From Acrocarpospora catenulata (GTDB lineage: Bacteria > Actinomycetota > Actinomycetes > Streptosporangiales > Streptosporangiaceae): a stretch of DNA of 64,000 nucleotides. The notes beneath the pieces were generated by a model, which saw only the letters and a program-made list of their open reading frames with translations, searched no databases and was not told where the DNA came from. Positions 2,689-16,630 of the stretch are shown in pieces (positions within the stretch are counted from its first letter, which is position 1; each line of letters begins with the position of its first letter). The DNA lies in assembly GCF_018476525.1 (NCBI RefSeq), contig NZ_JAHCST010000035.1:1-64000 (forward strand). The letters are read 5' to 3'. The position numbers were made by a program, and so were the translations under genes.

Positions 2689-2777
2689 CGCGTCTCCTTG
2701 CGGTTCCTTGCCTAGGAGACATGAAATACTTAGGAACGGTCCACTGTCTATAGATCGCGAAGAGCCTTCGCTGGCAT

Positions 2778-3533: not shown

Positions 3534-3590
3534 GCTCTCGACCTCCTTGGGCAGGTTAGCCCGCGCACCTGGAGTTGATCAATAGAAGAG

Positions 3591-3622
3591 GTGATAAATT
3601 TATAGCGGTATTAAACTATCAC
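3591..3622. promoter_or_regulatory. AT-rich divergent promoter with inverted repeat GTGATA-N20-TATCAC
   Basis: The 105-base gap between the DUF5131 gene (minus) and the XRE gene (plus) contains a markedly AT-rich core flanked by exact inverted arms GTGATA (3591-3596) and TATCAC (3617-3622). A symmetric site in a divergent promoter next to an XRE gene is the expected layout for an autoregulated switch. Binding by the XRE protein is inference. Confidence 0.5.
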
Positions 3623-3638
3623 TGAGGCTGGTTGGGCA

Positions 3639-3935
3639 GTGGCTGTAGGACGGAAGAGACGGGAAGCGAGTCAGTATGCAGACCACGCAGTTCGCCTATC
3701 GCGCCATCTGAGAGCACTTCGCGTCGATGCCGGATACACACAGGAGCAGTTGGCAACGCGAGCTCAGGTGACCTTGGCCACGCTACGCAAGATCGAGACT
3801 GGACGGACCGTAGAGCCTGGCTACTTCACTGTGCTAGCCCTTCTCCGCGCTTTGAATGTTCGACCTGCAGACTTCGACACTGCCGTATGGGAGGCGAAGC
3901 ACGAGGCCGGCGAGCGAGCGCGGGACCGCCCTTGA
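3639..3935 (+). CDS. XRE-family helix-turn-helix regulator
   Basis: 98-residue cytoplasmic DNA-binding protein starting at GTG. The Cro/C1-type HTH occupies about residues 20-75 (LRALRVDAGYTQEQLATRAQ, then VTLATLRKIETGR and FTVLALLRALNV). No other domain is present. It is transcribed divergently from the DUF5131-tcmP pair, and the shared gap carries an inverted repeat, so it most likely represses or times expression of that pair. Its own start codon is not preceded by a strong ribosome-binding site. Confidence 0.82.
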   Translation: MAVGRKRREASQYADHAVRLSRHLRALRVDAGYTQEQLATRAQVTLATLRKIETGRTVEPGYFTVLALLRALNVRPADFDTAVWEAKHEAGERARDRP

Positions 3936-4469
3936 CTTGCAACGTGTGCGGTCCGCACCGCTACCCTTGTACTGATCTTCCCGTCCGCTATCGACCCGCC
4001 ACAGAGGGGCGTCAGGCCGGTGACGGAAGGTCAAGCTCGGCTTTCGCGTGTACATGCTCCCCGGTGACCTTCCTCGCCTGCTGGTTGCCCTACCTAAACA
4101 GCCGGGCTTGTTCTGGAGGAACACCGGGGTCTGCTGGGCTTGCCCAGGTTGATGGCGGACGGGAACATCAGGGCTTCCCACCTCAGCTACTACCTAAGAA
4201 CCCAAGCCCGGGATCTTGAAAGCTTCCCAGAGCAGGAGCCCTCGCGGTTTGGGGCAGCGCCCCAAGGGTCTTCCCCTATCTCCGCTCACCAACTCCCGTG
4301 CTTCCCATGTTTCTTCGAAAGAGCCAACTGTGTGCGGGCTCTCGAACCGAGCCCACTTGTGTCTAGGGCATACTCGATAGCTAGACCTAAGCGCGTCATG
4401 AAGCGGTGTAGAGCGGCATGACGCTTCCTGACTAGTCATGCAGCTCAGTAACGTTCTAGGCTAATCACT
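3936..4469. other. Non-coding stretch with AICE-type conserved element
   Basis: No convincing gene in 534 bases. The left half contains the first copy of a conserved non-coding segment (about 4040-4135) that recurs at 6486-6582. The right half, upstream of the GntR gene at 4470, has several TCTAG/CTAGA-type short inverted arms: GTCTAGG near 4360, CTAGACC near 4381, and the palindrome GACTAGTC near 4430. It also has a possible -10 (TAGGCT) about ten bases before the ATG, which would give a leaderless or near-leaderless transcript. The GntR protein may bind these sites (inference). Confidence 0.45.
4040..4135. repeat. Conserved non-coding element, copy 1
   Basis: Aligns by eye with 6486-6582. 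Shared blocks include GTGACCTTCCTCGCC, GCTGGT-GCCCTAC and CAGCCGGGCTTG, followed in both by a run ending GGGCTTGCC. The two copies bracket the GntR-CD-NTase-S-4TM cassette. The differences include small shifts, which argues against a conserved protein, although a minus-strand frame in both copies could read KPGC..RATS.RGRSPG.MY. Function unknown; a transfer or replication site of the element is one possibility. Confidence 0.55.
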
Positions 4470-4790
4470 ATGAGCCAGGTGCCCCCTTACGACCCGGACG
4501 AACCGGGTGTCGTGAACTACGTCTATATGCGGTTAGCCGACCACATAACCGCACGAATCCAAGCTGGCGAACTGCTTACCGGGAACCGGCTACCGGGAGA
4601 ACGTGACCTTGCCGAAGAATACGGTGTCGCTCTCGGCACAGTGCGCCGGGCCGTGGAAGAACTGAGGCAACGCGGTCTGGTCATCACGCTGCCGGCCAAG
4701 GGCACCTACATAACAGATAGAAAAAGACTCCAACTAGCCAACAACCAGAAAGAGCCTGTCAACCTTGAGTCTAAACGGGAACGCAACTAA
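4470..4790 (+). CDS. GntR-family winged-helix regulator leading the CBASS operon
   Basis: 106 residues with a single GntR winged helix at about 15-85 (YMRLADHITARIQAGELL, RLPGERDLAEEYGVALGTVR, LRQRGLVITLPAKGTY). The last 20 residues are hydrophilic, with no effector domain. It belongs to the compact GntR regulators common on actinobacterial AICEs and plasmids. Its 3' end overlaps the CD-NTase start by 26 bases, so the three genes 4470-6418 are almost certainly one transcript. A regulator of this class as first gene of a CBASS operon is unusual: it could keep the toxic effector silent or be a hitch-hiking element regulator. The ATG start is well placed behind a TAGGCT-like -10. Confidence 0.82.
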   Translation: MSQVPPYDPDEPGVVNYVYMRLADHITARIQAGELLTGNRLPGERDLAEEYGVALGTVRRAVEELRQRGLVITLPAKGTYITDRKRLQLANNQKEPVNLESKRERN

Positions 4791-5565
4791 AAGCTCGCTC
4801 GACATAAACTTTGAACGGTTCGATAACCAGATAAGGCTCGCCAACAAGGAACTAGAGACGGCACTAGAAAGGACAAGGAAGCTGCGAAGCCAAATATCTC
4901 AACATCCCCAAGTGTTGACCTGTACTGTAACTGGATCGATAGCAAGATCTACAGCGATCCGCATCTATTCAGATATCGACCTGGCGGTCAGGTTCAACGA
5001 GAGAGCGGCGACAAACGGCGGCCCAGCGGAAATAATTGCCGAGACTGAGCATATTGGCAAATCGGTAACCAAAAACATCCAAACATCAGATGGCTCGGTC
5101 AGGCTGATATTCCCGGACTGGCCATCCGTAGACCTTATTCCAATAGTTCAAGACAATACCTCTAAAACGAAACTTTTGATGCCCAACAGGGCACTCGCCG
5201 CGTGGCTTCCATACACAGCAGGGCAACGCGATATCGAGATCAACCTAAAAAGCAACATATTGGGCCCAAAATTCACCACACTTATACGCATTATGAAGTG
5301 GTGGGATCGGGTCAACGACCACAACATCGGCGCCTATTACATCGAACAGATGGCACTTGATGCGTGCAAATATGAGATGCCATCATACCCGGACGGGATC
5401 GTAAGCATCCTAGGCCAGGCAGCACAGAAGGCCACGAAGTCAAGCGGCTCAGCCGAGGAGCTTCAGGCTGCACACGACCTAGCGAAGAAGGCATCATTCG
5501 CAACACGCCCCGAACCACTCTGGAAAGCACTCTTTGGTGAAAAATTCCCCATCTCCCGCCCTTGA
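4765..5565 (+). CDS. CD-NTase (cGAS/DncV-like nucleotidyltransferase), CBASS sensor-cyclase
   Basis: 266-residue nucleotidyltransferase of the SMODS/CD-NTase class. It is expected to make a cyclic or linear oligonucleotide messenger when phage infection is sensed. The catalytic core is visible: a GS helix motif in VTGSIARSTAIRIYSDIDL (about residues 52-72), the paired aspartates of SDIDL, and the third acidic residue in PSVDLIPIV. The C-terminal half is the helical OAS-like domain (ILGPKFTTLIRIMKWWDRVN, then IGAYYIEQMALD). No in-frame ATG exists nearby, so TTG at 4765 inside the GntR gene is the best start. The downstream gene encodes the effector, and the frames overlap by 32 bases. Base composition is clearly more AT-rich than the chromosome, indicating recent transfer. 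No Cap2/Cap3-like accessory genes are present, so this is a minimal two-gene system. Confidence 0.87.
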   Translation: MSLNGNATKSSLDINFERFDNQIRLANKELETALERTRKLRSQISQHPQVLTCTVTGSIARSTAIRIYSDIDLAVRFNERAATNGGPAEIIAETEHIGKSVTKNIQTSDGSVRLIFPDWPSVDLIPIVQDNTSKTKLLMPNRALAAWLPYTAGQRDIEINLKSNILGPKFTTLIRIMKWWDRVNDHNIGAYYIEQMALDACKYEMPSYPDGIVSILGQAAQKATKSSGSAEELQAAHDLAKKASFATRPEPLWKALFGEKFPISRP

Positions 5566-6418
5566 ATTTATCGCACTCGCCGATGATCAGCTACACAGGG
5601 CGTCAAAAGGATTCCGCATTAGCCGGCAAGTCCAAATAATAACCCTCGCCTCCGCCATTGTTTCAATATTCACTCCGACAACAATCGCCTACATATTGGC
5701 GCTAATATCCCTCGGCACGCAAAGCGCGTCTTGGGTGATTAGGCACCAGGCTAAGAACCGTCAAACAATTGGCGACGAAGGCCGGATGCGCGGCCTGCTT
5801 TCTGATGCTCTTGGTTCGGCGAGTGAGAGCATCGACCTTACCAACCTTCTCCACCGAATGAACGATCGCCCTCAATCCGACAAAAAGCCCGAAGTAGACC
5901 CCACATACTTTGCAAGCAAATCCCCGCATGGCCCCATTCGTCTACGCGAACACTTGCAAGAGAATGCATTCTGGGGGAAATGCCTGTATGGCGCAAGCGC
6001 CAAGCAGGCGATCCGAAATCTGGCCATCTACTTCGTCGCTATCATTATCGCGACCTTCCTTGCCATACCTTTCGCATCAAACGACGATCAACTGATAACA
6101 GCCAGGATTCTCGTCGCACTCACAGTATTCGGTGCGACAATAACTCAAATTAACGAAATTATTGCGTGGAGGTCGGCAGAGTCGAAGATCGAGCTTGTAG
6201 ACCGACGTCTTAATGCCCTTGAAATCTACTCGGAGGTCCAGCTAAGGGGAGACGCTGCCGAAGCACTATATGCCGTTTTCGGAGATTACTCCGTCGCCAC
6301 AGCTTTGACCCCTCCTGTTCCCAGGAAGCTCTATCTCCGAGAACGCGACAGCCTAAATGCGCTATGGAAGAGGCGCAGCCCTCACCTGCAAACAAGCCAG
6401 CAAGAAGAACCCGCCTGA
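5534..6418 (+). CDS. S-4TM family putative pore-forming effector
   Basis: 294-residue membrane protein with four predicted transmembrane helices in two pairs: about residues 33-75 (IITLASAIVSIFTPTTIAYILALISL-type hydrophobic stretch) and about 165-215 (AIYFVAIIIATFLAIPFA, then a stretch around LVALTVFGATITQINEII). A soluble linker of roughly 90 residues separates the pairs, and a charged tail follows. This layout matches the S-4TM effectors linked by comparative genomics to CD-NTases, thought to open a pore after nucleotide messenger binding and kill the infected cell. The start overlaps the cyclase gene by 32 bases (TTG at 5534, or GTG at 5537). Composition is AT-rich like its partner. Pore formation is family-level prediction, not shown here. 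Confidence 0.82.
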   Translation: MVKNSPSPALEFIALADDQLHRASKGFRISRQVQIITLASAIVSIFTPTTIAYILALISLGTQSASWVIRHQAKNRQTIGDEGRMRGLLSDALGSASESIDLTNLLHRMNDRPQSDKKPEVDPTYFASKSPHGPIRLREHLQENAFWGKCLYGASAKQAIRNLAIYFVAIIIATFLAIPFASNDDQLITARILVALTVFGATITQINEIIAWRSAESKIELVDRRLNALEIYSEVQLRGDAAEALYAVFGDYSVATALTPPVPRKLYLRERDSLNALWKRRSPHLQTSQQEEPA

Positions 6419-6902
6419 TCACCTCTTACGCCGTCGTCCAACCCTGGAGGGGCAGCATGCCGGCACCGGAGGGGCGAGCCTGGCTTCGCGGGTACATGTC
6501 CCCGGGTGACCTTCCTCGCCCGCTGGTAGCCCTACGTGCACAGCCGGGCTTGAGCCGGAGTCGCCGGCCTGCGGGCTTGCCTGGGACGACGGTGTCCGAG
6601 GTGATCCCCCGCCACCATCCATCCATGAACCCGTCGCCTCGTGCACCCACGATCACCTCGGGTTCGGGCTCCCCGCCGGAGGCAAGGAAGCCCGCTCTTC
6701 CTGCTTGGTCGACGAAGTCGTCGCGTCCCGGGATCTGCTTCCTCCTGCTACGAGGTCAACCCGCCGTCTCTGAGTCAGGCGCGGGGAGGTGGCGTGGCCG
6801 GGACCGGCCCGGAGAGGCCGCACGCCCGGCCGCGCCAGGCCGTACCGCGCGCCGACGCCCACGGGGCGGCGGCTTGATTGTGTAGGGATAAGTTTCTTTC
6901 GA
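6419..6902. other. Non-coding stretch downstream of the CBASS cassette
   Basis: 484 bases without a credible gene. The first part carries copy 2 of the conserved non-coding element. The remainder (about 6660-6900) is GC-rich, with hairpin-prone runs such as GGGCTCCCCGCCGGAGGC and CGGGACCGGCCCGGAG, and may hold the transcription end of the CBASS operon. Reading frames here are overlapping, arginine-rich and show no recognisable product. Confidence 0.45.
6486..6582. repeat. Conserved non-coding element, copy 2
   Basis: Second copy of the segment at about 4040-4135; see that entry for shared blocks. It begins near CGCGGGTACATGTCC and ends near GCGGGCTTGCC. This copy is more GC-rich than copy 1, in line with its different flank. 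Confidence 0.55.
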
Positions 6903-7634
6903 TCATGTACCTGGGTTGGCTGTCTCCCAGGTTCGTTCAAAGCTGGTCATGTACATGGGGAAGCTGCCCTGGTCTCCGTTGGCGCGGAGGTGAACGACGG
7001 GGGCGTCGGAGGCTGGTGTCCCGTAGACGTGTGTGTTGATGAGTAGTTCGTCGTCTGCGCGGTAGAGCGAGTTGTAGAGCACGGTGCGGTGGAAGCGGAA
7101 CTCGGTTCCCGGGAGTCCTCTAAGGGGCTGGAAGAGGGTGATCGCGTTGCGGATCTTGGCAGAGATCGTGTCGCTGCCGATACGCTCGTCGGTTCCTCGG
7201 GTGGCCACCTCTTCGCTTTCCGGGTCGCCGAGGAGGATGCGGACTCTTACGCCGTTGCGGGCCCGGTCGGCGATGGTGTGGAGGAGTCCAGTGTCTTCGG
7301 CGAGAAAGAGGCTGCTGTAGGCGAGGATGCCGATTTCCTCGGTGGCGTTCTCGAAGAGGGCTTGCCAGGTGGCGTGCGGGACGGCCCAACGGTGGGAGTA
7401 GACGGCAAGGATCTCGTTGGAGAGGTGTTGACGGCGTGGCACCGTTTCCGGCCAGAGTTCGCCTTCGTCGAGTTGGAGGAGGTCGGCGATGGCCCAGCGG
7501 TGTCGTGGGTAGGGGATGCGCCCTTTGAGCCATCGGTCGACGGTTTTGGGGTCCACGGCGAGCGCGGATGCTACGTCGATGGGCCGTAGGCGGGCTTTGA
7601 TCAGGGCGTATCGCAGGTTCTCGCTCACGGGCAC
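6903..7634 (-). CDS. XRE HTH regulator with PLD-like C-terminal domain (paralog 1)
   Basis: 243 residues. The N-terminal HTH (about 8-60) contains RPIDVASALAVDPKTVDRWL. The C-terminal part (about 75-235) looks like a phospholipase D-like/DUF5919-type fold without two clear HKD motifs; the conserved run is FRFHRTVLYNSLYRADDELL followed by INTHVYG. Proteins of this design are recurrent AICE cargo of unknown activity. A close paralog lies at 9431-10171 in the same orientation, differing throughout but with the same motif order. The start is GTG (VPVSENL), and the promoter region upstream carries a TATGTT -10 and a GACGTCCC-type operator. It could be a sensor-regulator; enzymatic activity is doubtful. 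Confidence 0.72.
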   Translation of the reverse strand: MPVSENLRYALIKARLRPIDVASALAVDPKTVDRWLKGRIPYPRHRWAIADLLQLDEGELWPETVPRRQHLSNEILAVYSHRWAVPHATWQALFENATEEIGILAYSSLFLAEDTGLLHTIADRARNGVRVRILLGDPESEEVATRGTDERIGSDTISAKIRNAITLFQPLRGLPGTEFRFHRTVLYNSLYRADDELLINTHVYGTPASDAPVVHLRANGDQGSFPMYMTSFERTWETANPGT

Positions 7635-7666
7635 CTCTCGTGGGCGTGGGCTCTGCCAGCGACGCT

Positions 7667-7692
7667 AACATAAGAAGTCCCTAGACGTCCCT
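7667..7692 (-). promoter_or_regulatory. Promoter and GACGTCC-type operator of the gene at 6903-7634
   Basis: Read on the minus strand, a TATGTT hexamer (complement of 7667-7672) serves as a plausible -10. It is immediately preceded by AGGGACGTCTAGGGACT (complement of 7676-7692), two GGGAC half-sites around the -35 position. The same half-site appears at 8344-8383 and near 10216-10238, pointing to one common repressor. Confidence 0.5.
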
Positions 7693-7738
7693 CGTGTGGG
7701 GTGGATAGGTCCTTCTTCCTGTCAGAGGCTCAACCAGC

Positions 7739-7870
7739 ATGAACCCCGCCCGCTCGCCCTACCGATCAGCCCAACCGGCGCTCGGCTGGACCAAGCTGGA
7801 GGTAGATCCCCTGAAGCGTCGGCACGCCAATCGTGACGTCAGGTCACGCGTTCCGGGCAGGGTCGGATGA
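7739..7870 (+). CDS. Possible 43-residue ORF coupled to the GntR gene
   Basis: ATG-initiated frame reading MNPARSPYRSAQPALGWTKL and ending in RVPGRVG. Its TGA overlaps the ATG of the next gene (ATGA at 7867-7870). It is hydrophilic and arginine-rich, with no similarity I recognise. The overlap is the only argument for it being translated; it may instead be leader sequence. Confidence 0.22.
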   Translation: MNPARSPYRSAQPALGWTKLEVDPLKRRHANRDVRSRVPGRVG

Positions 7871-8376
7871 ACAGCGATCCTGAGCGGCTGAGCGGTTGGC
7901 GCATCTACCCGAGGATCGTCGAGGAGATCCGGGCGAGGATCGTGGCGGCCGAGTATCAGCCAGGATCGCTGCTCCCATCGGAGGGAGTTCTCTGTAAGGA
8001 ATTCAGTGTCGCTCGTAACACCCTCCGTCGGGCGCTTGTCGAACTCAAGAACGAAGGGCTACTCGACACCATCCCGTCCAAAGGGTGGCGCGTCGTAGGA
8101 CGAAGCGATCCTCAGCATGATCGGTACAAGTACGAGGGCATCGCCCGGGTTTTCCGCGAGCGAATCCAGACCGGTCTCCTGCCGCCAGGTGCCCTGGTGC
8201 CCAGCGAAGCAATGTTGCGGCAGGAGCTCGGTATTTCCCGGTACACCGTGCGCTCGGCTCTGGCGGTTCTCGAACGTGAGGGACTTCTGGAGACGAGACA
8301 AGGCAAGGGCCGGTATGTCACCCGGCGCGCACCTGCGGAAATAGGACGTCCCGGGACGTCCAGTAACCGGGACTAG
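7867..8376 (+). CDS. Tandem winged-helix GntR regulator
   Basis: 169 residues made of two complete GntR winged helices in tandem. The first is at about 10-78 (IYPRIVEEIRARIVAAEYQP, SLLPSEGVLCKEFSVARNTL, LKNEGLLDTIPSKGWRVV); the second at about 90-155 (YEGIARVFRERIQTGLLPPG, EAMLRQELGISRYTVRSAL, EREGLLETRQGKGRYV). No effector-binding domain is present, so one polypeptide may bridge two half-sites alone. The repeated GGGAC/GACGTCC sites around it (7676-7692, 8344-8383, 10216-10238) are candidate targets. Its last codons overlap the operator of the next gene. Confidence 0.82.
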   Translation: MNSDPERLSGWRIYPRIVEEIRARIVAAEYQPGSLLPSEGVLCKEFSVARNTLRRALVELKNEGLLDTIPSKGWRVVGRSDPQHDRYKYEGIARVFRERIQTGLLPPGALVPSEAMLRQELGISRYTVRSALAVLEREGLLETRQGKGRYVTRRAPAEIGRPGTSSNRD

Positions 8377-8383
8377 ATGTCCC
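8344..8383. promoter_or_regulatory. Two adjacent palindromes upstream of the HD-domain gene
   Basis: GGACGTCCCGGGACGTCC (8344-8361, perfectly self-complementary) is followed by GGGACTAGATGTCCC (8369-8383). They lie just before the HD gene start at 8403 and overlap the 3' end of the GntR gene. Related half-sites occur before both XRE/PLD genes, which suggests a shared operator family in this element. Confidence 0.55.
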
Positions 8384-8402
8384 CCGGGGTCACCTACCTA
8401 TC

Positions 8403-8984
8403 GTGAACAGCATGAGACAAGTCGAATGGGCTCGTGAGCTGGCACGCAAGGTCTTGGAGCAGCATCTGCCGCGCCGTTGGGAGCACTCGCAGGGCGTCGG
8501 GCGTCGCGCTGAATCGCTGGCGCCGATTCTCCGTAAGGACGCTGAGATCCTGGCCGCTTCCGCGTGGCTGCACGACATCGGGTATGCCCCTGACCTGATC
8601 GACGCCGGATTCCATCCGATCGACGGTGCTCGTTACCTCCGCGATGTCCACGGCGCCGACGAACTCCTGTGCCGCTTGGTCGCTCACCACACCTGCGCTG
8701 AGATCGAGGCCGGCCAGCGTGGCCTCCTCGACATCCTCACCGGTGAATTCCCCAAAGAGCGCGGCGACCTGGTGGAAGCGCTGACGTTCTGCGATATGAC
8801 CACCAGCCCCGATGGGCTGCCGTTGACGGTGATCGATCGGCTGGCCGAGATCCGCTCGCGCTACGGACCTGACGACGAAGTCACCTGGTGCATCAATCGG
8901 GCTGAGCCGCACATTCTGTCGGCCGTGCGATCCGTTGAATCACGGTTGGCGCTATCCGATGTGCGGCTTGACTGCCTGGTCTAG
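8403..8984 (+). CDS. HD-domain phosphohydrolase
   Basis: 193 residues with the HD superfamily metal-binding set: WEHSQGV (first His), AWLHDIGYAP (the HD pair), then a later FCDM aspartate. VAHHTCAE adds further His residues. Such proteins cleave phosphate from nucleotides or related metabolites; the substrate here is unknown. Next to a Nudix gene on an AICE, it may belong to a nucleotide-handling or element-control module. Start is GTG at 8403 or ATG at 8412. The 3' end runs 33 bases into the convergent Nudix gene. Confidence 0.83.
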   Translation: MNSMRQVEWARELARKVLEQHLPRRWEHSQGVGRRAESLAPILRKDAEILAASAWLHDIGYAPDLIDAGFHPIDGARYLRDVHGADELLCRLVAHHTCAEIEAGQRGLLDILTGEFPKERGDLVEALTFCDMTTSPDGLPLTVIDRLAEIRSRYGPDDEVTWCINRAEPHILSAVRSVESRLALSDVRLDCLV

Positions 8985-9428
8985 GTAGTGGCCGATCCGC
9001 AGGCGCATCGAGCGATCCATCTTCAGGCCGGTCACCTGGTCGCGCGGCACCCATTGAACCTCGGTTGATTCGCTGCTCGGGGTGGGCTCGCCGCTGACGG
9101 CCTGGGCGGTGAGGACGATGGAGAACTCTTGCCGGGCCTCGCCGTTACTGGTGTAGAGGATTACGTGCCGGGGATCGGTGTAGGTTCCGACCAGGCCCGT
9201 GATCTCGCAGACGATGCCGGTCTCTTCGAGGGTCTCGCGAACGCCTGCGGCGGGGAGTGACTCGCCGAGATCGATCGCACCCCCGGGCACGGCCCAGTTC
9301 CCGTTATCGCTGCGGCGGATCATCAGAACGTCCCCGGCCAGGTTCGTCACCACGACGTTGACCGAGGGGACGAGGCTGTTGGGTGCGGGAGCGTCGGGGT
9401 CGTCGTAGAAGTCGATCCGTTTGCTCAT
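8952..9428 (-). CDS. Nudix hydrolase, Pif-like
   Basis: 158 residues from ATG (MSKRIDFYDDPDAP). The complete Nudix box is present: GGAIDLGESLPAAGVRET followed by LEETGI, matching GX5EX7REUXEEXGU. In pSAM2 a Nudix protein, Pif, prevents redundant transfer between element-bearing cells, and this gene sits in comparable company, so a Pif-like role is plausible. Nudix substrate preference cannot be read from sequence. It starts two bases after the stop of the XRE/PLD gene 9431-10171 and so is probably co-transcribed with it. Confidence 0.82.
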   Translation of the reverse strand: MSKRIDFYDDPDAPAPNSLVPSVNVVVTNLAGDVLMIRRSDNGNWAVPGGAIDLGESLPAAGVRETLEETGIVCEITGLVGTYTDPRHVILYTSNGEARQEFSIVLTAQAVSGEPTPSSESTEVQWVPRDQVTGLKMDRSMRLRIGHYLDQAVKPHIG

Positions 9429-9430
9429 GG

Positions 9431-10171
9431 TCAGGACTCTACCGGGGTGGCCTCGGACCATACGCGCTCGAAGCTCTCCAGGTAGGTGGTCACCATGTCA
9501 CCGCCGGCGACCCGTCGTAGATGCAGAACCGGGGCGTTGGCCGCGGGGGCGCCGTAGATGTGCGTGTTGACGAGAAGCTGGTCGTCGGCGCGATAGATCG
9601 AGTTGTAGAGGATCGTGCTGTGCAGTCGGATCTGTACGCCGTCGATCCGAAGGATGGGCCGGTAGAGGACCAGAGCGTTGCGGACTTTGGCCGCCATCAC
9701 TTCGTCGATGCCCTCGTCCGCGCCTCGTTGGGCGACTTCCGCGCTGTCGGGGTTGCCGAGAAGAATCCGTACCTGGACGCCGGTGCGGGCCTTCTCGCCG
9801 AGAACCCGGACCAGCCCGGAATCCTCGGCGAGGAACATGCCGCTGTAGACCAGGATGCCGATTTGCTCGGCGGCGTCGGAGAACAGACGTCCCCAGGTGT
9901 CACGAGGGACCGTCCAGCGATGTGGGTAGATGTTGACGATCTCGCTCTCTGACGCTGAGGCCACCTGTTCACGTGTCAGCGCTTCCGGCCAGAGATAGGA
10001 CTCGTCCATCCCGAGATGTGAGGAGACCGCGTACCTGTGTTTTCGGTACGGGGCGCGGCCTTTGGTGATCCACCGTTCGACGGTCTTGGGGTCCACCTCG
10101 ATGGCTGCGGCCAGTTCGGCGACGCTCACCCCGCGCTCCAGAAGAGCCGCGCGTAGTCGCTCGTTCGCCAT
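9431..10171 (-). CDS. XRE HTH regulator with PLD-like C-terminal domain (paralog 2)
   Basis: 246 residues, same architecture as 6903-7634. The HTH at about 8-60 has VSVAELAAAIEVDPKTVERW. The C-terminal domain carries HRWTVPRDTWGRLF, EQIGILVYSGMFLAEDSGL, VRILLGNPDSAEVAQRGADE and RLHSTILYNSIYRADDQLL then VNTHIYG. More than half of the positions match the paralog by eye. It is the first gene of a two-gene unit with the Nudix gene (2-base gap). The promoter region shows TAGGAT as -10 and a CCGGACGT/ACGTCCGG palindrome upstream. Two divergent copies in one region suggest merger of two related elements rather than recent duplication. Confidence 0.73.
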   Translation of the reverse strand: MANERLRAALLERGVSVAELAAAIEVDPKTVERWITKGRAPYRKHRYAVSSHLGMDESYLWPEALTREQVASASESEIVNIYPHRWTVPRDTWGRLFSDAAEQIGILVYSGMFLAEDSGLVRVLGEKARTGVQVRILLGNPDSAEVAQRGADEGIDEVMAAKVRNALVLYRPILRIDGVQIRLHSTILYNSIYRADDQLLVNTHIYGAPAANAPVLHLRRVAGGDMVTTYLESFERVWSEATPVES

Positions 10172-10205
10172 CTCACCTGCCCGCCTGGGACGTTCGGGGA
10201 CTCGT

Positions 10206-10238
10206 TCATCCTAAGCCGGACGTCTTGCACACGTCCGG
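10206..10238 (-). promoter_or_regulatory. Promoter and CCGGACGT-N7-ACGTCCGG operator
   Basis: Read on the minus strand, TAGGAT (complement of 10206-10211) is a fair -10. Exact arms CCGGACGT (10216-10223) and ACGTCCGG (10231-10238) sit over the -35. This drives the XRE/PLD-Nudix unit. It is the strongest member of the GACGTCC site family in this region. Confidence 0.5.
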
Positions 10239-10317
10239 TCGTGTAGTGATCTCGTCCTGACACTTCCTCGCACCCTCGGTAAGGAGCCCCAACCCGCCGA
10301 GGAAAGGAGGAGTGATC

Positions 10318-10536
10318 TTGACCAACACGATTACCGCCCCAGGTGAGGAACCCCCGCCGGTCTGCATCTGCGGGGCGGCCCTGGCCGAAGGTCAGAAGCT
10401 CTGCCGCAAGTGCGCGGCCCGGGAGCGCTGGGCCAAGCGTCAGGCGGCCCGGCTGCGTCTCAAGCGGCGTCGCAACCTCAGCCGACGTCCTCCGCGTGAC
10501 CCGCACCGCACGCCCATCGTGGGGACCGCGTCATGA
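10318..10536 (+). CDS. Small basic CxC-CxxC protein of the element
   Basis: 72 residues starting at TTG. A strong AAAGGAGG at 10303-10310 is spaced correctly for TTG at 10318 and too close for GTG at 10312. A compact zinc-ribbon-like pattern (VCICGAALAEGQKLCRKC) precedes a very basic tail (RLRLKRRRNLSRRPPR). Small proteins of this kind occur just upstream of transfer genes on AICEs; the role is unknown and nucleic-acid binding is a guess. Its TGA overlaps the ATG of the next gene (ATGA). Confidence 0.6.
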   Translation: MTNTITAPGEEPPPVCICGAALAEGQKLCRKCAARERWAKRQAARLRLKRRRNLSRRPPRDPHRTPIVGTAS

Positions 10537-10808
10537 GCTGGCTTCCGCTGATCATCGCGGTGATTTTGGCCGCTGCCGTACTGATCGGCTTCGTCGTGGT
10601 CCTGGTCGGAATGCACCGGGAAGACCACAGCCGGCACCTGCCACCGCACGCGCCGACCGTCTCCTCAGCACTGGCCCGGCGGGTGATCGGTTGCTACGTC
10701 CGCGACAACCGCCTTAATCGCTCGCCTTCGGATCGGCGGCGGGCAACGCGGCCTCGATCTGCTCCAGGCGGCGGGTCAGGTTCTGCACGGCACTACGCAG
10801 GGCGGTGA
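10533..10808 (+). CDS. Small single-pass membrane protein of the element
   Basis: 91 residues. The N-terminal transmembrane helix covers about residues 3-27 (LPLIIAVILAAAVLIGFVVV then LVG). A cytoplasmic segment with APTVSSALARRVIGCYV is followed by an arginine/serine-rich tail. It is translationally coupled to the preceding small zinc-ribbon-like gene. The last 95 bases overlap the antisense 3' end of the GntR gene, so the natural C-terminus may be shorter or altered. Function unknown; it is AICE-associated. Confidence 0.55.
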   Translation: MSWLPLIIAVILAAAVLIGFVVVLVGMHREDHSRHLPPHAPTVSSALARRVIGCYVRDNRLNRSPSDRRRATRPRSAPGGGSGSARHYAGR

Positions 10809-11079
10809 CCTCGGCCCGTAGGTCCGCATCCTGCGCTGGCTGCCCGTCCTCGCAGACGAACACCCCTTTGCCCTGCTGGCCGACGACAAGACCCTCGTTG
10901 CGCAAGATCCCCACGGCCATCTTCACCACCGACAGCGAGGCGTCGAACTGCTCGGCCAGTTGGGCGGTGGAGGGCAACGGTTCGCCGGGCGCGAGAAGTC
11001 CGCCGCGAATCCGCTCCCGCAGTTCGTCGGCGATCTGAAGGTATCCGGGCCTGCCCGTCTTCTTGACCATCGCGCTCAT
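10714..11079 (-). CDS. KorSA-like GntR repressor with C-terminal coiled coil
   Basis: 121 residues. A GntR winged helix spans about 10-78 (YLQIADELRERIRGGLLAPG, STAQLAEQFDASLSVVKMAV, RNEGLVVGQQGKGVFV). A predicted coiled coil at about 85-112 (LRAEVTALRSAVQNLTRRLE) is probably for dimerisation. In pSAM2 the GntR protein KorSA represses the transfer functions. Here the gene is divergent from the SCO3933-family/tra genes and the gap between them is packed with repeated TxGTTGxC motifs, so a KorSA-like role is well supported by context. With tra truncated, the repressor may now be a relic. Confidence 0.8.
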   Translation of the reverse strand: MSAMVKKTGRPGYLQIADELRERIRGGLLAPGEPLPSTAQLAEQFDASLSVVKMAVGILRNEGLVVGQQGKGVFVCEDGQPAQDADLRAEVTALRSAVQNLTRRLEQIEAALPAADPKASD

Positions 11080-11082
11080 CTC

Positions 11083-11155
11083 ACCACGCGCAACCCAACC
11101 AAGCCAACCACGAGCACATTGACAACCAAGCCAACTAGGTCAACTATGTTGACCG
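11083..11155. promoter_or_regulatory. Divergent promoter with phased GTTG repeats (KorSA-type operator)
   Basis: On the minus strand the gap reads as successive near-identical 9-base units TAGTTGACC, TAGTTGGCT, TGGTTGTCA, then a second cluster TGGTTGGCT, TGGTTGGGT. On the plus strand TTGACA at 11119-11124 is a possible -35 for the transfer operon. GntR repressors of AICEs bind such repeated sites. This would let one protein silence both directions. Confidence 0.6.
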
Positions 11156-11176
11156 TGAGCTAAGGAGGTTTACGAC

Positions 11177-11506
11177 ATGCGAACCATCCCGATCCCCGTC
11201 GACACGAACAGGCTCACCTTCACCTGCGTGAAGCAGCCGCGCCCCCGCCTGATCAACAAGGACACCGGAGAGATCAAGACCGACAAGACCGGACAGGTCG
11301 TCTACGAGGTCATCTGCTCGGTGGAAGACACCTCGGGCCGGATCGAACTGGTCAAGGTCGCCGTCTCCGGTGAGCCGCCCATCACCTCCGGAGACGAGGT
11401 GATCCCGGTCGACCTGGCGGGCTACGTCTGGGAGATCTCCGGCCGCTGGGGGATCTCCTACCGGGCCACCGCCTTCACACCCGCCCGAGGGGTCGACGGT
11501 GCCTGA
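11177..11506 (+). CDS. SCO3933-family AICE protein
   Basis: 109 residues, full length for the family. It starts at ATG behind an excellent AAGGAGG (11162-11168). Characteristic blocks are RTIPIPVDTNRLTF, LINKDTGEIKTDKTGQVVYE, ELVKVAVSGEPPI and IPVDLAGYVWEISGRWGISY. The family is named after a gene of the integrated SLP1 region of Streptomyces coelicolor and sits directly before tra/ftsK in such elements. It has been annotated as regulatory, but its mechanism is not known to me. It overlaps the downstream fusion gene by 8 bases, so they are co-translated. Confidence 0.85.
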   Translation: MRTIPIPVDTNRLTFTCVKQPRPRLINKDTGEIKTDKTGQVVYEVICSVEDTSGRIELVKVAVSGEPPITSGDEVIPVDLAGYVWEISGRWGISYRATAFTPARGVDGA

Positions 11507-12902
11507 GTCCGCTCACTTCCCGCTGATGGTCCTCGCCGCTGTGCTCATCGCGGCGGCGGGGCTGCCGACCTGGCGCCGACTCCACTACCGGTCCTATTGG
11601 CCGGCGGTCGGCTATCCGCTGGCCGCGCTGTCGGTGTGGGCCTCCTGGCGGCGGGTCGCCCTGGGCTGCGGGCTGACCAAGAAGCGGCAACGCTACTGGT
11701 TCACCCTCGTACCTGGAAGCGTCGCCTCCACCGGCCTGGTCAAGGTCAAGCGGCGTTTCCAGCGGGTCGCGGTCGACACTCGCCCGTTCATGTGGCTGCC
11801 GATGCCCACCCGGCACGGGTGGCGCGTCACGGTGCACACCCTTGAAGGCCAGACTCCCGCTGACTACTCCGAAGCTGCGGAACGACTCGCGCACTCCTGG
11901 GGAGTCCACGCCGTACGGGCCTCGTCACCTCGCCCGGGTCGGGTAGTCCTCGCCGCGACCGTGCGTGACCCACTCGTACAGATTGATCAGCTTCCGCCGT
12001 CAACCGAGTTGCTCGGCGTGACGGTGGGCCGCTTGGAATCCGGTACGCCGTGGGTGATCGACTTCAAGATCGTTCCACAGCTGGACGGTGAAGCCGCGGC
12101 GGCAACAACGATCGCCCGTAAGCGATCGGTCTTCTACAACGTTCTTCAGTACGCGGTAGATCTAGAGGAACTGCCATCCAATCCGATCGACAAGGTCAAG
12201 GCGTGGAAGCCGCCTAAAGTCCGTGAAGTGGTGGACAGGCGCGTAGTCGTCAATCCGAGCCAGGCGCGCGAACTTCTCAACGCGGTTACCTACGTTGGTC
12301 GCCTCGATCGTGGCAGGCATCTCCGGGCTTTCTTCACGTGCCTCTACTTCGCGGCGCTCCGCCCAGCAGAAGCGCTCGGCCTCCGTGAAGCCGATTGCTA
12401 CCTACCCGCGACAGGCTGGGGCCTTCTCGTCCTCGCCAAGTCCAAGCCGCAAGCCAACAAGCGATGGACGAACAGTGGGGATGCACACGACGACCGAGGG
12501 CTGAAACACCGAGCCAGCGAAGAGGGTCGTCCCGTGCCGATACCCCCGGAACTGGTGACAATCCTCCGTGCCCATATCGAAGAGTTCGGCGTGAACCCGG
12601 ACGGCCGACTCTTCCGTACCTCACGCGGGGGCGTTATCTCGATCGGCACCTACTGCAACGTATGGAGGAAGGCGCGCCACACTGCCTTCAGGCCCGAGCA
12701 AGTCGCCTCCCCTTTGGCTGGGCGTCCATACGACCTGCGTCACGCGGCCGTCTCGCTGTGGCTCAACGCAGGTGTGGCCGCGCCTGAGGTCGCCGACCGG
12801 GCAGGGCACGGTGTTGATGTCCTCTTGAAGGTCTACGCCAAGTGCATCGATGGTGGCGCCGAAATCGCCAATCAGCGCATCAGCGATGCGCTGGGGCCAT
12901 GA
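11499..12902 (+). CDS. In-frame fusion of TraB/FtsK N-terminus to tyrosine integrase C-terminus
   Basis: 467 residues composed of two unrelated gene pieces. Residues 1 to about 190 match the start of an AICE TraB/FtsK transfer protein: membrane helix LMVLAAVLIAAAGLP, then YRSYWPAVGYPLA, WRRVALGCGLTKK, AERLAHSWGVHAVR, ATVRDPL and TPWVIDFKIVP. That last block normally lies just before the Walker A motor, which is missing. Residues from about 194 match an AICE integrase from inside its core-binding domain onward (RKRSVFYNVLQYAVDLEELP, NPIDKVKAWKPP). All catalytic blocks follow: AALRPAEALGL (Arg I), RPYDLRHAAVSLWLNAGV (second Arg/His), RAGHGVDVLLKVYAKC (His and nucleophile Tyr). The join is near 12060-12085. 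The simplest reading is one deletion removing the tra motor, rep, xis and the integrase N-terminus. Conjugative function is lost; recombination activity is doubtful. Confidence 0.85.
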   Translation: MPESAHFPLMVLAAVLIAAAGLPTWRRLHYRSYWPAVGYPLAALSVWASWRRVALGCGLTKKRQRYWFTLVPGSVASTGLVKVKRRFQRVAVDTRPFMWLPMPTRHGWRVTVHTLEGQTPADYSEAAERLAHSWGVHAVRASSPRPGRVVLAATVRDPLVQIDQLPPSTELLGVTVGRLESGTPWVIDFKIVPQLDGEAAAATTIARKRSVFYNVLQYAVDLEELPSNPIDKVKAWKPPKVREVVDRRVVVNPSQARELLNAVTYVGRLDRGRHLRAFFTCLYFAALRPAEALGLREADCYLPATGWGLLVLAKSKPQANKRWTNSGDAHDDRGLKHRASEEGRPVPIPPELVTILRAHIEEFGVNPDGRLFRTSRGGVISIGTYCNVWRKARHTAFRPEQVASPLAGRPYDLRHAAVSLWLNAGVAAPEVADRAGHGVDVLLKVYAKCIDGGAEIANQRISDALGP

Positions 12903-12944
12903 GACGGAGGAGTCATCCGAGGGTCTCGACCATCTCGGGTCCCT

Positions 12945-13056
12945 CCTATCCGGAACAACGACAAACGAGGACTGCGCACAGCTCACTGCTGCACATCGAG
13001 CAAACGCTCAACCAGGCTGATGAGAGGCGTATGCGCTGGTCAAATGGCGTTTAGAA
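12945..13056. repeat. Integrase-flanking segment, copy 1
   Basis: Directly downstream of the integrase part lies a segment similar to 16425-16527 beside the tRNA-Ser gene. Shared stretches include CAACGAC-AAC, GCTGCACATC and GTATGCGCTGGT followed by a common GTTT. AICE integrase genes normally end next to attP, so these segments are probably att-proximal flanks of two related elements. The tRNA 3'-end identity block itself is not recognisable after this copy; only AGCGTGGG near 13080 survives. Confidence 0.5.
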
Positions 13057-13232
13057 GATCGGGTGGTGATCCAGGCGTTCAGCGTGGGCCCAACTGCGGC
13101 AGAAGCCCCGCGATCTAACCTTCTCAAGCGTGTGTCGACGACTGATCGTACATACAAGCTCGCCAAACCGCGTGCAATCTTCGGCGTCGATGCTTGACCG
13201 GCCTGCTGTGGCGGTCAAGGTATTCTCACTAC

Positions 13233-14033
13233 GTGACCAAACGTTCGCATCGTCTCCTCCAAGAAATCGAGGCAGGCGCCCTGGATCATCGCACGGCCAT
13301 CGCTGATCTTCTGCGGAAGGTGATCGCCCTTGGCGGACGAGCAGGCTCGGCTGAGCTTAGCGACTGGGCCGCCCGAGAACTGCGGGGTTACAAACCTGAC
13401 GAAGAACTGCCCGAGTATCGAAAAATCGTTGCACCGCTGCATGTCGACATGATGAATATGCGGTGGGCGATCAAGGGGCGGCAAGTTAGCCCCTCGCAGT
13501 TGCCGGATTTCGCCCAAGATAGCATCAACAATGATCTGAACCTCTACATGGGAATCGCGGAGATCGAGAAGCTCGCTCGTCAGTCCACCAGCTCAGACGA
13601 GGTCGTAAAGCTGCAACCAAGGGGTGCCGCCGATCTGGTGCATTACATGAACCTCAAGGAGATGGCTAACGGACACATCGAACGGCTTTACTGGGCTGTC
13701 GCGCCAGTGGCATTTGAGGGCGTAGTCGAGCAAGTCCGCACGACGCTCGTCGTTATGGTGGCTGAAATCAACGCGAACCTCCCGGATGGCGCAGAGACAC
13801 CGCCAGCGGAGGTGGCAACCAACGCCATCAACTTCGCCGTGACCGGGAAACGCAACAAAATCAATTTTGTTGCTCCCCAGAGTGGCAGCACCGTGGAGAC
13901 GACCCTGTCAGCAGACGAAGAGGGAGAGCCTAGGTACTCGCTACGTCTCGCCGCAGCTGTCATCGTGGGACTGATCACCATCGCCGGAGCGGTCTTTGCC
14001 TTGATGCAAGTGCAGGGGTGGACGTTTGGATGA
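13233..14033 (+). CDS. AbiTii-domain protein with C-terminal membrane anchor
   Basis: 266 residues from GTG at 13233 (VTKRSHRLLQEI). The N-terminal 80 residues carry the AbiTii pattern: a leading helix LLQEIEAGALDH, then LLRKVIALGGRAG, LSDWAARELRGYKPDEELPE and YRKIVAPL. This domain is associated with abortive-infection-type phage resistance. A long helical middle part follows, and then one transmembrane helix at about 240-262 (LRLAAAVIVGLITIAGAVFA). The topology puts the AbiTii part in the cytoplasm. It stands alone, with no obvious partner on its strand, between integrase and the DUF262-HEPN pair. Defence activity is a family-level inference. Confidence 0.75.
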   Translation: MTKRSHRLLQEIEAGALDHRTAIADLLRKVIALGGRAGSAELSDWAARELRGYKPDEELPEYRKIVAPLHVDMMNMRWAIKGRQVSPSQLPDFAQDSINNDLNLYMGIAEIEKLARQSTSSDEVVKLQPRGAADLVHYMNLKEMANGHIERLYWAVAPVAFEGVVEQVRTTLVVMVAEINANLPDGAETPPAEVATNAINFAVTGKRNKINFVAPQSGSTVETTLSADEEGEPRYSLRLAAAVIVGLITIAGAVFALMQVQGWTFG

Positions 14034-14398
14034 CCCTTACGCCCGGATATGCGCCACCAGCTACAAGCCAATGCGTCTTTCAATCACGGTCACCTCAGGG
14101 CCGGAATCCCTCACCAAAAGGCTCTGACCTGCATCCGAGCGCAAGCTGTGCACCACTACTCACATAAGATAATCCCGGGCCACCGGAGAGCGTCACGAGC
14201 GAACCCAACAGACCACAGCGGCCAACGCCCATGCGAAGCACCCGTAGAGCAGCGAAGCGGTGGGGGCCGGCGGTGTGGCGGACGCAGCGTAAGCGTATAC
14301 TGATCTCTTCGTGGCCGTGCCAGAGGCGGATACACACCCCTCTTCAGCGTTCTCGCTAAGGCTTTCAACTCCACATGGCAATTGGGTCGCGATCCCTC
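14034..14398. other. Non-coding stretch between AbiTii and HEPN genes
   Basis: 365 bases between convergently transcribed genes with no supported ORF. The only notable item is a short inverted pair CCCTCTCAGCGAGGG at 14394-14408, just after the HEPN stop on the minus strand, which could end that transcript. No IS end or att core was recognised. Confidence 0.4.
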
Positions 14399-14899
14399 TC
14401 AGCGAGGGTCGAAATTCAGAATGAACCAATCTGTCAATAACTGAGAGTAATTGAGCAGATCCAGCGCTTTCCGGGATCCAACACCTTCGCTCTCGCCGTG
14501 CGCTATCAGATTCCTTTTATTGATAAGGAGAGAGATCTCTCTTTTTAACTCCGAATCATTGTTTTCAAATAACTCACGCAGATCCCGCTGCAATTCAGGC
14601 CCGAACCTACCAACCATTTCGATCAGGCGCTCAGGCTCGGGATTGTTAATGCGCGCGGTCCAAGACCTTGAGAAGAGGCGTACTCTCCCAAAGGACTTAT
14701 GCTCGATATATACCTGAAAGCATTCTTGTACCGTCTTCTCGAGATGCCCGCAAGTGCGAACAACTAGGAATCTAGCTAAAGCTTGCGTTACCTGGTCCGG
14801 CTCTTCGGGTGCCGGATACTCCACGAGCTTGGCCAGCGAATTCAGCTTCCTATCGAGATTCTGAAGTGTAAGCGATGGCCATGCAATCACGCCGCCCAT
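14399..14899 (-). CDS. HEPN-domain protein (MAE_28990-like), candidate ribonuclease toxin
   Basis: 166 residues, all-helical. The C-terminal part contains RNLIAHG at about 138-144, fitting the HEPN RX4-6H ribonuclease motif (R-NLIA-H). Upstream helices (LARFLVVRTCGHLEKTVQEC, LRELFENNDSELKREISLLI) match the MAE_28990/RiboL-PSP type of HEPN proteins, which are found beside DUF262 genes. Its ATG follows the DUF262 stop after one base, so the two are translated together. The expected role is RNA cleavage on infection, held in check or triggered by the DUF262 partner. This is inference from family and layout. Confidence 0.78.
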   Translation of the reverse strand: MGGVIAWPSLTLQNLDRKLNSLAKLVEYPAPEEPDQVTQALARFLVVRTCGHLEKTVQECFQVYIEHKSFGRVRLFSRSWTARINNPEPERLIEMVGRFGPELQRDLRELFENNDSELKREISLLINKRNLIAHGESEGVGSRKALDLLNYSQLLTDWFILNFDPR

Positions 14900-14900
14900 T

Positions 14901-16034
14901 CTAAGCTCTCGCGAATCGTCTCGTTGCTGTCTCTAGACGGGCCTTAACGCTCTCCTCGTCGGCGGTCGAGCGGCTAATTGCTGCAGGAAGCGTTGGGTCA
15001 CTCTGGATCTCTCGGATCGCGATTGCAACGCCATCGGCAGTAATTTCTCGGTCGAAGTCAAGACGACGCATAAGCCCAACGAACAACGCCTCAGTTAGCG
15101 CTGCGTTTACTTGGCTACTCTGGAATCGCACCGCCTTGCGCCCTACGGCCTCTGCGATTAGCTGACTCGTGCGCTTGAACAAGTCCTCAAGCACCGCTGT
15201 ATTTAGGTGCTGCAGAGTCCGGTGTTGCGCTGCGAAGTTGTTCAGAAATACTTTTAGTGGCCTTTTATAGGTTGGAGCGCTGGCATAGAGGGCGAGGATT
15301 CTTAGGATAAGCTCCTGATCGCGCAGGCGAGGGGATGGCTTTCCATAGATTGCTCGCCAGTCCTGGCCCTGGTTCAACTTCTCTAGGAAGTCGATGAATG
15401 GACCCGCATAGAGAGCCACCCGTATCTCATGTGGGGTGAGTTGAGTGCCTCCCGAATTCAGGCGCTCGAAAATCTGATATACAACTTCGAGGGATTCGCG
15501 TGAACCGTCTGTATCGACGATAGTTGCTTGAAAGAACGTGTTGTCCAAGAGGCGCCGCTGGTCCTCTGGAAGGGTCTCGTATGTTAGGCCTTTGAGCGGT
15601 TCCCCCACATTGCTCAGGGCAAATTGCTTGCCTTCAAATGTTCCATCATAGAATCGCTGGAGCGTACGCAATCGCTGCTGCCCATCGAGTACTAGATACC
15701 GTCGATCCGCTTGACGAACCAAAAAAATCCCTGGGATGGGGTAACCCAGAAGCAGCGACTCGATAAACCTGTCCATTTGAGGGCGCGTCCAAACAAATGC
15801 ACGCTGGAACCCTGCCGACGAGATTCGTTTGTCATCGTGGCCGAACGTTGGAACAAGAATATCGTTCTTATTGAGACGACGCACTAGGCCTTCTACGTCG
15901 AAGTCTTGACCAGAATAGGTTACCTGCTTTGGCGTCGGCTCTGCCTCAAGCAAGTCCAGTTTTTCTTGTTCGATTAGCTCTATCGGCTCTTCGACATCGG
16001 CGTTCTCTGGAGGGGACTCCTGCTGATCGTTCAC
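14901..16034 (-). CDS. DUF262 (ParB-like/GmrSD N-terminal domain) protein
   Basis: 377 residues from GTG at 16034 (VNDQQESPPEN). The open frame extends to 16298, but that part runs antisense through an IS256 fragment and lacks a family match, so it is rejected. The DUF262 core shows FVWTRPQMDRFIESLLLGYP, GIFLVRQ and the signature YLVLDGQQRLRTLQRFYDG (DGQQRL). Then come IFERLNSGGTQLTPHEIRVA and the helical domain to the end. The HNH (DUF1524) nuclease of GmrSD enzymes is absent, in line with the separate HEPN protein supplying nuclease activity. The DGQQR segment is thought to bind or hydrolyse nucleotide. It is co-transcribed with the HEPN gene (1-base gap). Confidence 0.83.
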   Translation of the reverse strand: MNDQQESPPENADVEEPIELIEQEKLDLLEAEPTPKQVTYSGQDFDVEGLVRRLNKNDILVPTFGHDDKRISSAGFQRAFVWTRPQMDRFIESLLLGYPIPGIFLVRQADRRYLVLDGQQRLRTLQRFYDGTFEGKQFALSNVGEPLKGLTYETLPEDQRRLLDNTFFQATIVDTDGSRESLEVVYQIFERLNSGGTQLTPHEIRVALYAGPFIDFLEKLNQGQDWRAIYGKPSPRLRDQELILRILALYASAPTYKRPLKVFLNNFAAQHRTLQHLNTAVLEDLFKRTSQLIAEAVGRKAVRFQSSQVNAALTEALFVGLMRRLDFDREITADGVAIAIREIQSDPTLPAAISRSTADEESVKARLETATRRFARA

Positions 16035-16198
16035 GCTGGAAGCGTACAGGCAGTCCTGTCCAGATGTCTGTGATTTACCTGCCGTGTGATTGCAGAGAGT
16101 TGACCACTCCTGTTGTCCGAGAAGCAGCGATGGCGCGACCGGGTCACGTCCCACTGAGTGGTGTAGTTCAGGCGTCGCGTGCGGCTCTGCCGGTTTGA

Positions 16199-16320
16199 CT
16201 ATGCCGTGAGTAGGTCGGGCTGTGCCACCAGTTGGGTGGCGGTGTCGGTCAGCAGTGCCATCGATCCTTCCGACAGGTAGCGGTCGGCCATCTGCCATTC
16301 ATCGTAGGCTTTCGACCAGG
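16199..16320 (-). mobile_element. IS256/Mutator-type transposase C-terminal fragment
   Basis: The minus strand reads SKAYDEWQMADRYLSEGSMA then LLTDTATQLV and stops at 16199. This is the typical tail of actinobacterial IS256-family transposases (DEWQ...RRYLSEGSM). About 40 codons remain, with no catalytic DDE region. The matching tail has one residue fewer than usual around DRYLS. It marks an old insertion between the defence cargo and the tRNA. Confidence 0.65.
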
Positions 16321-16343
16321 GCGGCGCCGGCCGAGCCGTAGCA

Positions 16344-16367
16344 GGGCCCCGGGACATCCCGGGGCCC
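16344..16367. terminator. Perfect GGGCCCCGGG hairpin left of tRNA-Ser
   Basis: A 10-base perfect stem (GGGCCCCGGG 16344-16353, CCCGGGGCCC 16358-16367) closes a 4-base ACAT loop and is followed rightward by TCTTCCATTT. It could be the terminator once attached to the tRNA-Ser transcript, or to the IS fragment. The short U-like tract lies on the right side, favouring rightward transcription. Confidence 0.5.
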
Positions 16368-16424
16368 TCTTCCATTTCCGCCGCTGAGCAGGGGAAACAC
16401 GCCCATCATCCATCCCGGACATAT

Positions 16425-16527
16425 CCCGGGAGCAACGACGAACAGGGGCTACAACTGGCTCATAGCTGCACATCAAGCGGGCGATCAACGATGGCTGCCA
16501 AGAAGCGTATGCGCTGGTAGATGCTGT
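16425..16527. repeat. Integrase-flanking segment, copy 2, beside tRNA-Ser
   Basis: Similar to 12945-13056 (see there). It lies 15 bases from the 3' end of tRNA-Ser, the position expected for an integrase-side att flank after integration at this tRNA. No integrase gene remains beside it, so this looks like the stub of an element whose integrase was lost. Confidence 0.5.
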
Positions 16528-16541
16528 TTCAGGAGGTAGGG

Positions 16542-16630
16542 CGGAGAGCGTGGGATTCGAACCCACGAGACCGGTTGCCCGGCCTAGCGGTTTTCAAGAC
16601 CGCCGCCATCGTCCACTAGGCGAGCTCTCC
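16542..16630 (-). tRNA. tRNA-Ser(UGA)
   Basis: The minus strand folds as a class II tRNA. The 7-base acceptor GGAGAGC/GCTCTCC is closed exactly, the D-arm reads GCCTAGTGG, and the anticodon loop is CTTGAAA with anticodon TGA. A variable arm of serine type and a T-arm GTGGGTTCGAATCCCAC follow. Its 3' end points to the accessory region, and tRNA 3' ends are the standard attB of AICEs. Confidence 0.95.

Follow-up and report, generated by a model that had tools for sequence, protein, structure and literature searches.

The AICE pSAM2 encodes KorSA, Pra, TraSA, RepSA, Xis, and Int; the pra promoter is a target to which KorSA binds, and the operon formed by repSA, xis, and int is activated by Pra (PMC8584621). 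AICEs are described as "prone to decay", with partial integrases and cargo left between direct repeats (PMC9513070), and AICE remnants have also been described in a separate report (PMC3218068). The locus analyzed in this study lies in a 64,000-nt stretch of the Acrocarpospora catenulata genome (the window). It contains the same gene families and the same regulator pair as pSAM2, but has neither a complete tra nor a complete int gene. No replication initiator was found among the window frames scanned, which are a part of all its frames, and the left contig break hides part of the element.

Several known systems resemble this locus closely. The degenerate AICEs of a Streptomyces population are likewise AICE remains that keep cargo and part of an integrase, flanked by direct repeats where the element originally integrated; in the window, however, the integrase remnant continues the frame of a TraB N-terminus, and no such joint is described in the available part of that report (PMC9513070). 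The intact AICE of Acrocarpospora macrocephala has the same tRNA-Ser and the same backbone genes, in the same order and on the same strand, but differs by complete traB, repSA, and int genes, other cargo, and a more diverged int. No published description of a tra-int fusion of the type seen in the window was found in the literature searched.

The fused frame and the intact relative

Window positions 11499-12902 on the plus strand form a single open frame of 467 codons, which has a GTG start and is interrupted by neither a stop nor a frameshift. Codons 1-193 correspond to the N-terminus of an AICE TraB, and in codons 195-467 the C-terminal part of an AICE tyrosine integrase follows, 60% of that protein (Table 1). 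The codon-by-codon comparison with homologues (16 TraB and 52 integrase rows of at least 57% identity, five of the rows being visibly out of register) places the switch between P193 and L195, that is, at window 12078-12083. The original prediction of an in-frame tra-int fusion is thus borne out by the open frame and by its split homology to the TraB and Int proteins of A. macrocephala. The junction, placed near residue 190 in that prediction, is indeed in this region, with the exact switch a few residues later.

The TraB homology breaks off within PHWLNAGATQSGKS, and the GATQSGKS motif would begin six residues past P193. Since the homology ends 12 residues ahead of the Walker A lysine, Walker A and all of the downstream motor are lost from the remnant. 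The integrase is entered 183 residues past its normal start, so that these N-terminal residues are gone, and it extends to its normal end.

In A. macrocephala (G003; contig C6, NZ_BLAE01000006.1), a member of the same genus, the two halves match at two places on one strand. The TraB half matches C6:222191-222778 (87% identity over residues 1-196 and 88% over residues 1-194; E 1.1e-115), and the integrase half matches C6:226855-227679 (84% over residues 191-465; E 7.7e-155), both above chance. The gene order there is GntR, the SCO3933-like gene, TraB (443 aa, FtsK_SpoIIIE), further frames, RepSA (448 aa), Int (456 aa), cargo, and tRNA-Ser(TGA). The window DNA is 89.3% identical to this region (L038, 6567-11768) through window 12076, and from window 12081 the match resumes at L038 15868 with 73% identity. 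This jump in collinearity means that about 4.1 kb of the A. macrocephala element is absent from the window. The TraB motor part, RepSA, and the integrase N-terminus all lie between the halves in A. macrocephala, in agreement with the losses originally proposed. The list of missing genes had also included xis, but none was identified between the halves, where the one small frame scanned matched no family. Among the matches listed for the 341 family genomes, the nearest integrases are 81-86% identical; the integrases of the relatives named in Table 1 are located near tRNA-Ser(TGA), like that of the window.

Table 1. Features of the AICE remnant in the window
Feature	Position	Strand	Basis or remark
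Element backbone collinear with A. macrocephala	6869..11498, block continuing to 12076		89.3% DNA identity
GntR-type regulator in KorSA position, divergent from SCO3933-like gene	10714..11079	-	Pfam GntR; same arrangement in A. macrocephala
SCO3933-family (Pra-like) regulator, overlaps start of fused frame	11177..11506	+	NCBIfam NF051478
TraB (FtsK-like) N-terminal part, codons 1-193	11499..12077	+	Homology; helices 3-28 and 30-56 predicted, and a small alpha/beta part; without Walker A
Junction traB/int, codons 194-195	12078..12083	+	Codon comparison with TraB and integrase homologues
Tyrosine integrase C-terminal part, codons 195-467 and stop	12081..12902	+	End of core-binding part and catalytic domain
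Cargo between int remnant and attR: AbiTii-like, HEPN, GmrSD_N	12903..16504		No match to A. macrocephala region
tRNA-Ser (TGA), integration site	16540..16630	-	Common to relatives G003, G002, G085, G036, G009, G042
attR repeat, 61 bp, 3' part of tRNA-Ser(TGA)	16541..16601	-	Second copy at C157:41206-41266 of the same genome

Regulators, cargo, and ends of the element

The int remnant was expected to have come under the control region of the tra gene. It is indeed placed directly behind the pair of GntR (KorSA-like) and SCO3933-like genes. The GTG start of the fused frame overlaps the stop codon of the SCO3933-like gene, an arrangement shared with the intact relative. Recognizable backbone genes are retained, with some core functions lost, and att direct repeats flank the remnant at a tRNA gene.

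The attR repeat lies in the window, and the second att copy, on contig C157, is followed by DNA resembling the left end of the A. macrocephala element (76% identity). The first approximately 126 bp of the window contig are a repeat that also occurs on several other contigs, so a contig break probably interrupts the element, and we infer that contig C157 and the window contig (C111) are adjacent. The two att copies (C157 copy, L147 6170-6267; window 16505-16601) are 93% identical over 98 bp, and their likeness extends about 36 bp outside the tRNA part on the same side; the end of another element might be located left of the C157 copy.

A 14-bp motif occurs at window 13027-13040 (125 bp past the int stop) and 16505-16518 (adjoining attR). 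With one mismatch, it also adjoins the C157 att copy (L147 6170) and is found at L038 18491 and 1314 in the A. macrocephala region. It is absent at up to two mismatches from the tRNA-Ser loci L041, L042, L043, and L046, and L040 has a two-mismatch copy only. This motif is a candidate arm-type or Xis site.

Defence-like cargo is found at window 1705-6418 and 13194-16298. It comprises a PDC-M41 A/B pair, a CBASS-like combination of an oligonucleotide cyclase and a 4TM effector, and, in addition, AbiTii, a HEPN protein, and a GmrSD_N/PD-T4-2_A-like protein. Window 6903-7634 and 9431-10171 (both on the minus strand) encode two proteins that are related to each other and weakly match PLD-like, DUF5919, and HTH families; each also matches the A. 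macrocephala counterpart of the other, at about 70% DNA identity.

The site itself appears to be used by more than one element. Second att copies are present near tRNA-Ser in G001 and G004, and in G036, which has another tRNA-Ser element, an int relic (L042, 1154-1363 and 1576-1699) adjoins the left att repeat, a sign of tandem accretion. Together these observations suggest that the tRNA-Ser site collects elements.

Search for further tra-int joints

The same fusion was sought in related genomes, a check proposed together with the original prediction, and among the matches listed none was found beyond the window's own genome. With the full protein as a query, a joint-spanning match occurred nowhere else in the genus (five genomes), nor was there one outside the own genome among the matches listed for the relatives set (149 genomes) and for the family (341 genomes). 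A query spanning the junction (threshold E 1e-70, scoring limited to a few candidates in each genome) matched 92 of the 341 family genomes, and the joint was spanned in the window's own only; every other match ended at query residue 149 or before, or started at residue 141 or after. The 75 distinct genome_contigs loci, a collection that may omit the window's own genome, likewise gave no joint-spanning match. All these searches relied on score thresholds, and among the matches listed the fusion is carried by one genome only. A conserved fusion family was rejected, as the matches listed for these sets include no spanning one beyond the own genome.

Several individual candidates were also rejected. 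In G027, G075, and G011, the matches reach the TraB half, but there is no TraB homology at E 1, and each has its own integrase N-part, whole or partial. G309 shows neither TraB homology nor an integrase N-part and looks like another cut integrase. The integrase N-part is present in L015, L020, L005, L036, L093, and L111. In L032, a weak 30-residue piece of the integrase N-part was found at the contig edge. A TraB part was seen in none of the rows that run over into that half; in L093, a TraB hit occurs separately, 3 kb upstream.

N-terminally cut integrases are common. The deduplicated set of 115 integrase catalytic hits in the loci compared comprises 79 with the N-part, 30 without it, and six too near an edge. 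These 30 hits are spread over 23 loci, where some of them are fragments of a single gene, and an N-part that has diverged strongly could escape detection; moreover, the loci were chosen by likeness to the fused protein, and 30/115 is not a population rate. In two of the 30, the integrase part directly adjoins a tra frame, one being the window and the other locus L100 of Micromonospora endolithica (NZ_RBAK01000012.1, L100 positions 8001-9159). As in the window, an FtsK-like Tra N-terminus in L100 leads directly into the catalytic part of an integrase, but the joint is independent, is situated just past Walker A, and is out of frame: the FtsK-like frame, 34% identical to the A. macrocephala TraB, passes Walker A, and the integrase goes on in a different frame. 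The two cases indicate that tra-int joints arise more than once and need not be in frame.

Origin, age, and activity of the fused frame

The fused frame is very probably the fossil of a recent in-frame deletion, most likely the ordinary wreck of a pSAM2-like AICE at tRNA-Ser(UGA). With traB codon 193 joined to approximately int codon 184, the element would have lost the motor of TraB, its genes for transfer and replication, and 40% of the integrase, and the ends would have met in frame by chance, a one-in-three event. Such in-frame joining leaves a long open frame, since both parent frames were open. Of the two options initially offered, the simple fossil is the best reading, in view of the intact relative, the missing parts, and the cut integrase domains. 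The accompanying suggestion of a single deletion between tra and int holds as far as an in-frame deletion is concerned, but an origin from one element is unproven, because the int half is far more diverged from A. macrocephala than the TraB half.

A variant compatible with the fossil reading is that two elements meet at the joint: a resident AICE would have given the traB gene, and another AICE, accreted in tandem at this tRNA-Ser, the int end. We regard it as a tentative but real possibility. It is favored by the fall of DNA identity to A. macrocephala at the junction, from 89.3% to 73%, and by dS, which is 0.40 in the TraB half and saturated in the int half. The difference in GC3 (0.81 in the TraB half versus 0.71 in the int half), the cargo past int without a match in the A. 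macrocephala region, the second att copies in G001 and G004, and the int relic by the left repeat in G036 point in the same direction. However, replacement of the int module in either lineage, followed by a simple internal deletion, gives the same pattern, and module exchange between AICEs has been described (PMC9513070). Further, no donor with both the window int and its cargo was seen among the matches listed for the 341 family genomes. Within int, the matches listed by the DNA search with window 12084-16500 (E 1e-30, two candidates scored per genome) reached 78% identity at most; outside int, a single match was among them, 165 bp long and 83% identical, in G004. Judging from these comparisons, another element, perhaps one in tandem, may be the source of the integrase half: either the parent would have been a mosaic, with its int module replaced before the deletion, or two tandem elements would have been joined.

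An assembly chimera is highly improbable. The contig does start in a repeat, but the junction lies about 12 kb inside the 92.9-kb contig. In the own genome (G000, contig C111) both halves are spanned by the window copy only, and the next best separate copies are only 55% (int) and 61% (TraB) identical at the protein level, so that there is no near-identical repeat to mislead the assembler.

For the fossil reading, the age of the event is of interest. The non-synonymous differences to four outgroups are about equal for the window and A. macrocephala TraB, being, respectively, 85.8 and 85.8 (G002), 85.8 and 87.2 (G004), 98.3 and 101.2 (G085), and 86.8 and 88.8 (G036). Between the window and A. 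macrocephala, dN/dS of the TraB half is 0.17, and in the int half the synonymous sites are saturated. None of the 41 near-invariant positions in int (compared with 66 sequences) and none of the 38 in TraB (18 sequences) is lost, in a count that dropped rows with stops, with at least eight gaps, or at least 97% alike. Hence decay visible in the sequence was rejected as a sign of age: near-invariant positions are kept, and the TraB half has no non-synonymous excess. The lack of accelerated protein change in the TraB half suggests a recent event. The intact positions and the open frame would fit such an event, and maintenance would explain them too.

The domain structure of the integrase was considered in an AlphaFold model of the A. 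macrocephala protein (mean pLDDT 84, 42 sequences). A strand-and-helix N-terminal domain (about residues 1-60) and a helical core-binding part (69 to about 221) are followed by the catalytic part from residue 242. By analogy with the general integrase plan, which includes an arm-binding N-terminal domain (PMC8138268), the first domain is probably arm-binding. Foldseek relatives of the model include the Tn1549 integrase, XerH, lambda Int, and Cre, and no TM-score, taken by query length, exceeds 0.44; a search of solved structures by sequence profile gave no matches at E 0.001. The fusion begins at Int residue 184, and of the core-binding domain it retains only the final helices, namely the last long one (191-210) and a short one (218-221). 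Residues R288, K336, Y411, R414, H437, and Y446, which we take to be the active site by the tyrosine recombinase motif (R, K, H or Y, R, H, Y), are all present in the fused frame. Of 13 positions in the active-site region, eight are invariant across 42 aligned rows, and at the other five (Int 401, 423, 424, 426, and 432), where a few rows deviate, the window carries the majority residue. In a model of the whole fused frame (mean pLDDT 66), there are two long N-terminal helices, the joint region (residues 182-205) has pLDDT below 50, and the catalytic part is predicted to be folded; most of this part exceeds 80, except for a loop with low values at 315-341.

Since the N-terminal domain and most core-binding helices are missing, recombination by the fused protein is unlikely, although the active-site residues survive. 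The product, if made, would be a membrane-anchored TraB stub carrying a catalytic domain that could not clamp or select att DNA, so that the element would be immobile by its own genes. A related Int acting in trans might still act on the element. A broken int alone does not prove immobility, as excision was observed for a Frankia AICE despite a stop codon in its int; the authors propose the action of another integrase, although no close one was found (PMC3218068).

The second option offered initially, a membrane-tethered recombinase with new control, finds no support here. That a functional tethered recombinase or DNA-binding regulator is expressed from the KorSA/Pra-controlled promoter seems extremely improbable, for although the frame is open, the active-site residues are present, the TraB N-terminal helices are predicted, and the start overlaps the SCO3933-like gene, the protein lacks the domains named above, its joint is predicted with low confidence, no other searched genome carries it among the matches listed, and the parallel L100 joint is out of frame. 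Just as doubtful is co-expression with the KorSA/Pra unit of a membrane-held catalytic domain or a dominant-negative partner that would hinder related integrases or TraB hexamers, guarding tRNA-Ser against incoming AICEs.

The window case is another instance of the known decay of AICEs, with an accidental open frame. It provides a base-level example of this process, in which one joint strips transfer, replication, and integration and yet leaves a frame open. Automatic annotation could name such a frame an unusual integrase, and an intact relative should be checked before chimeras of this kind are called new proteins. The tRNA-Ser gene is a hot spot where defence-like cargo may be stranded.
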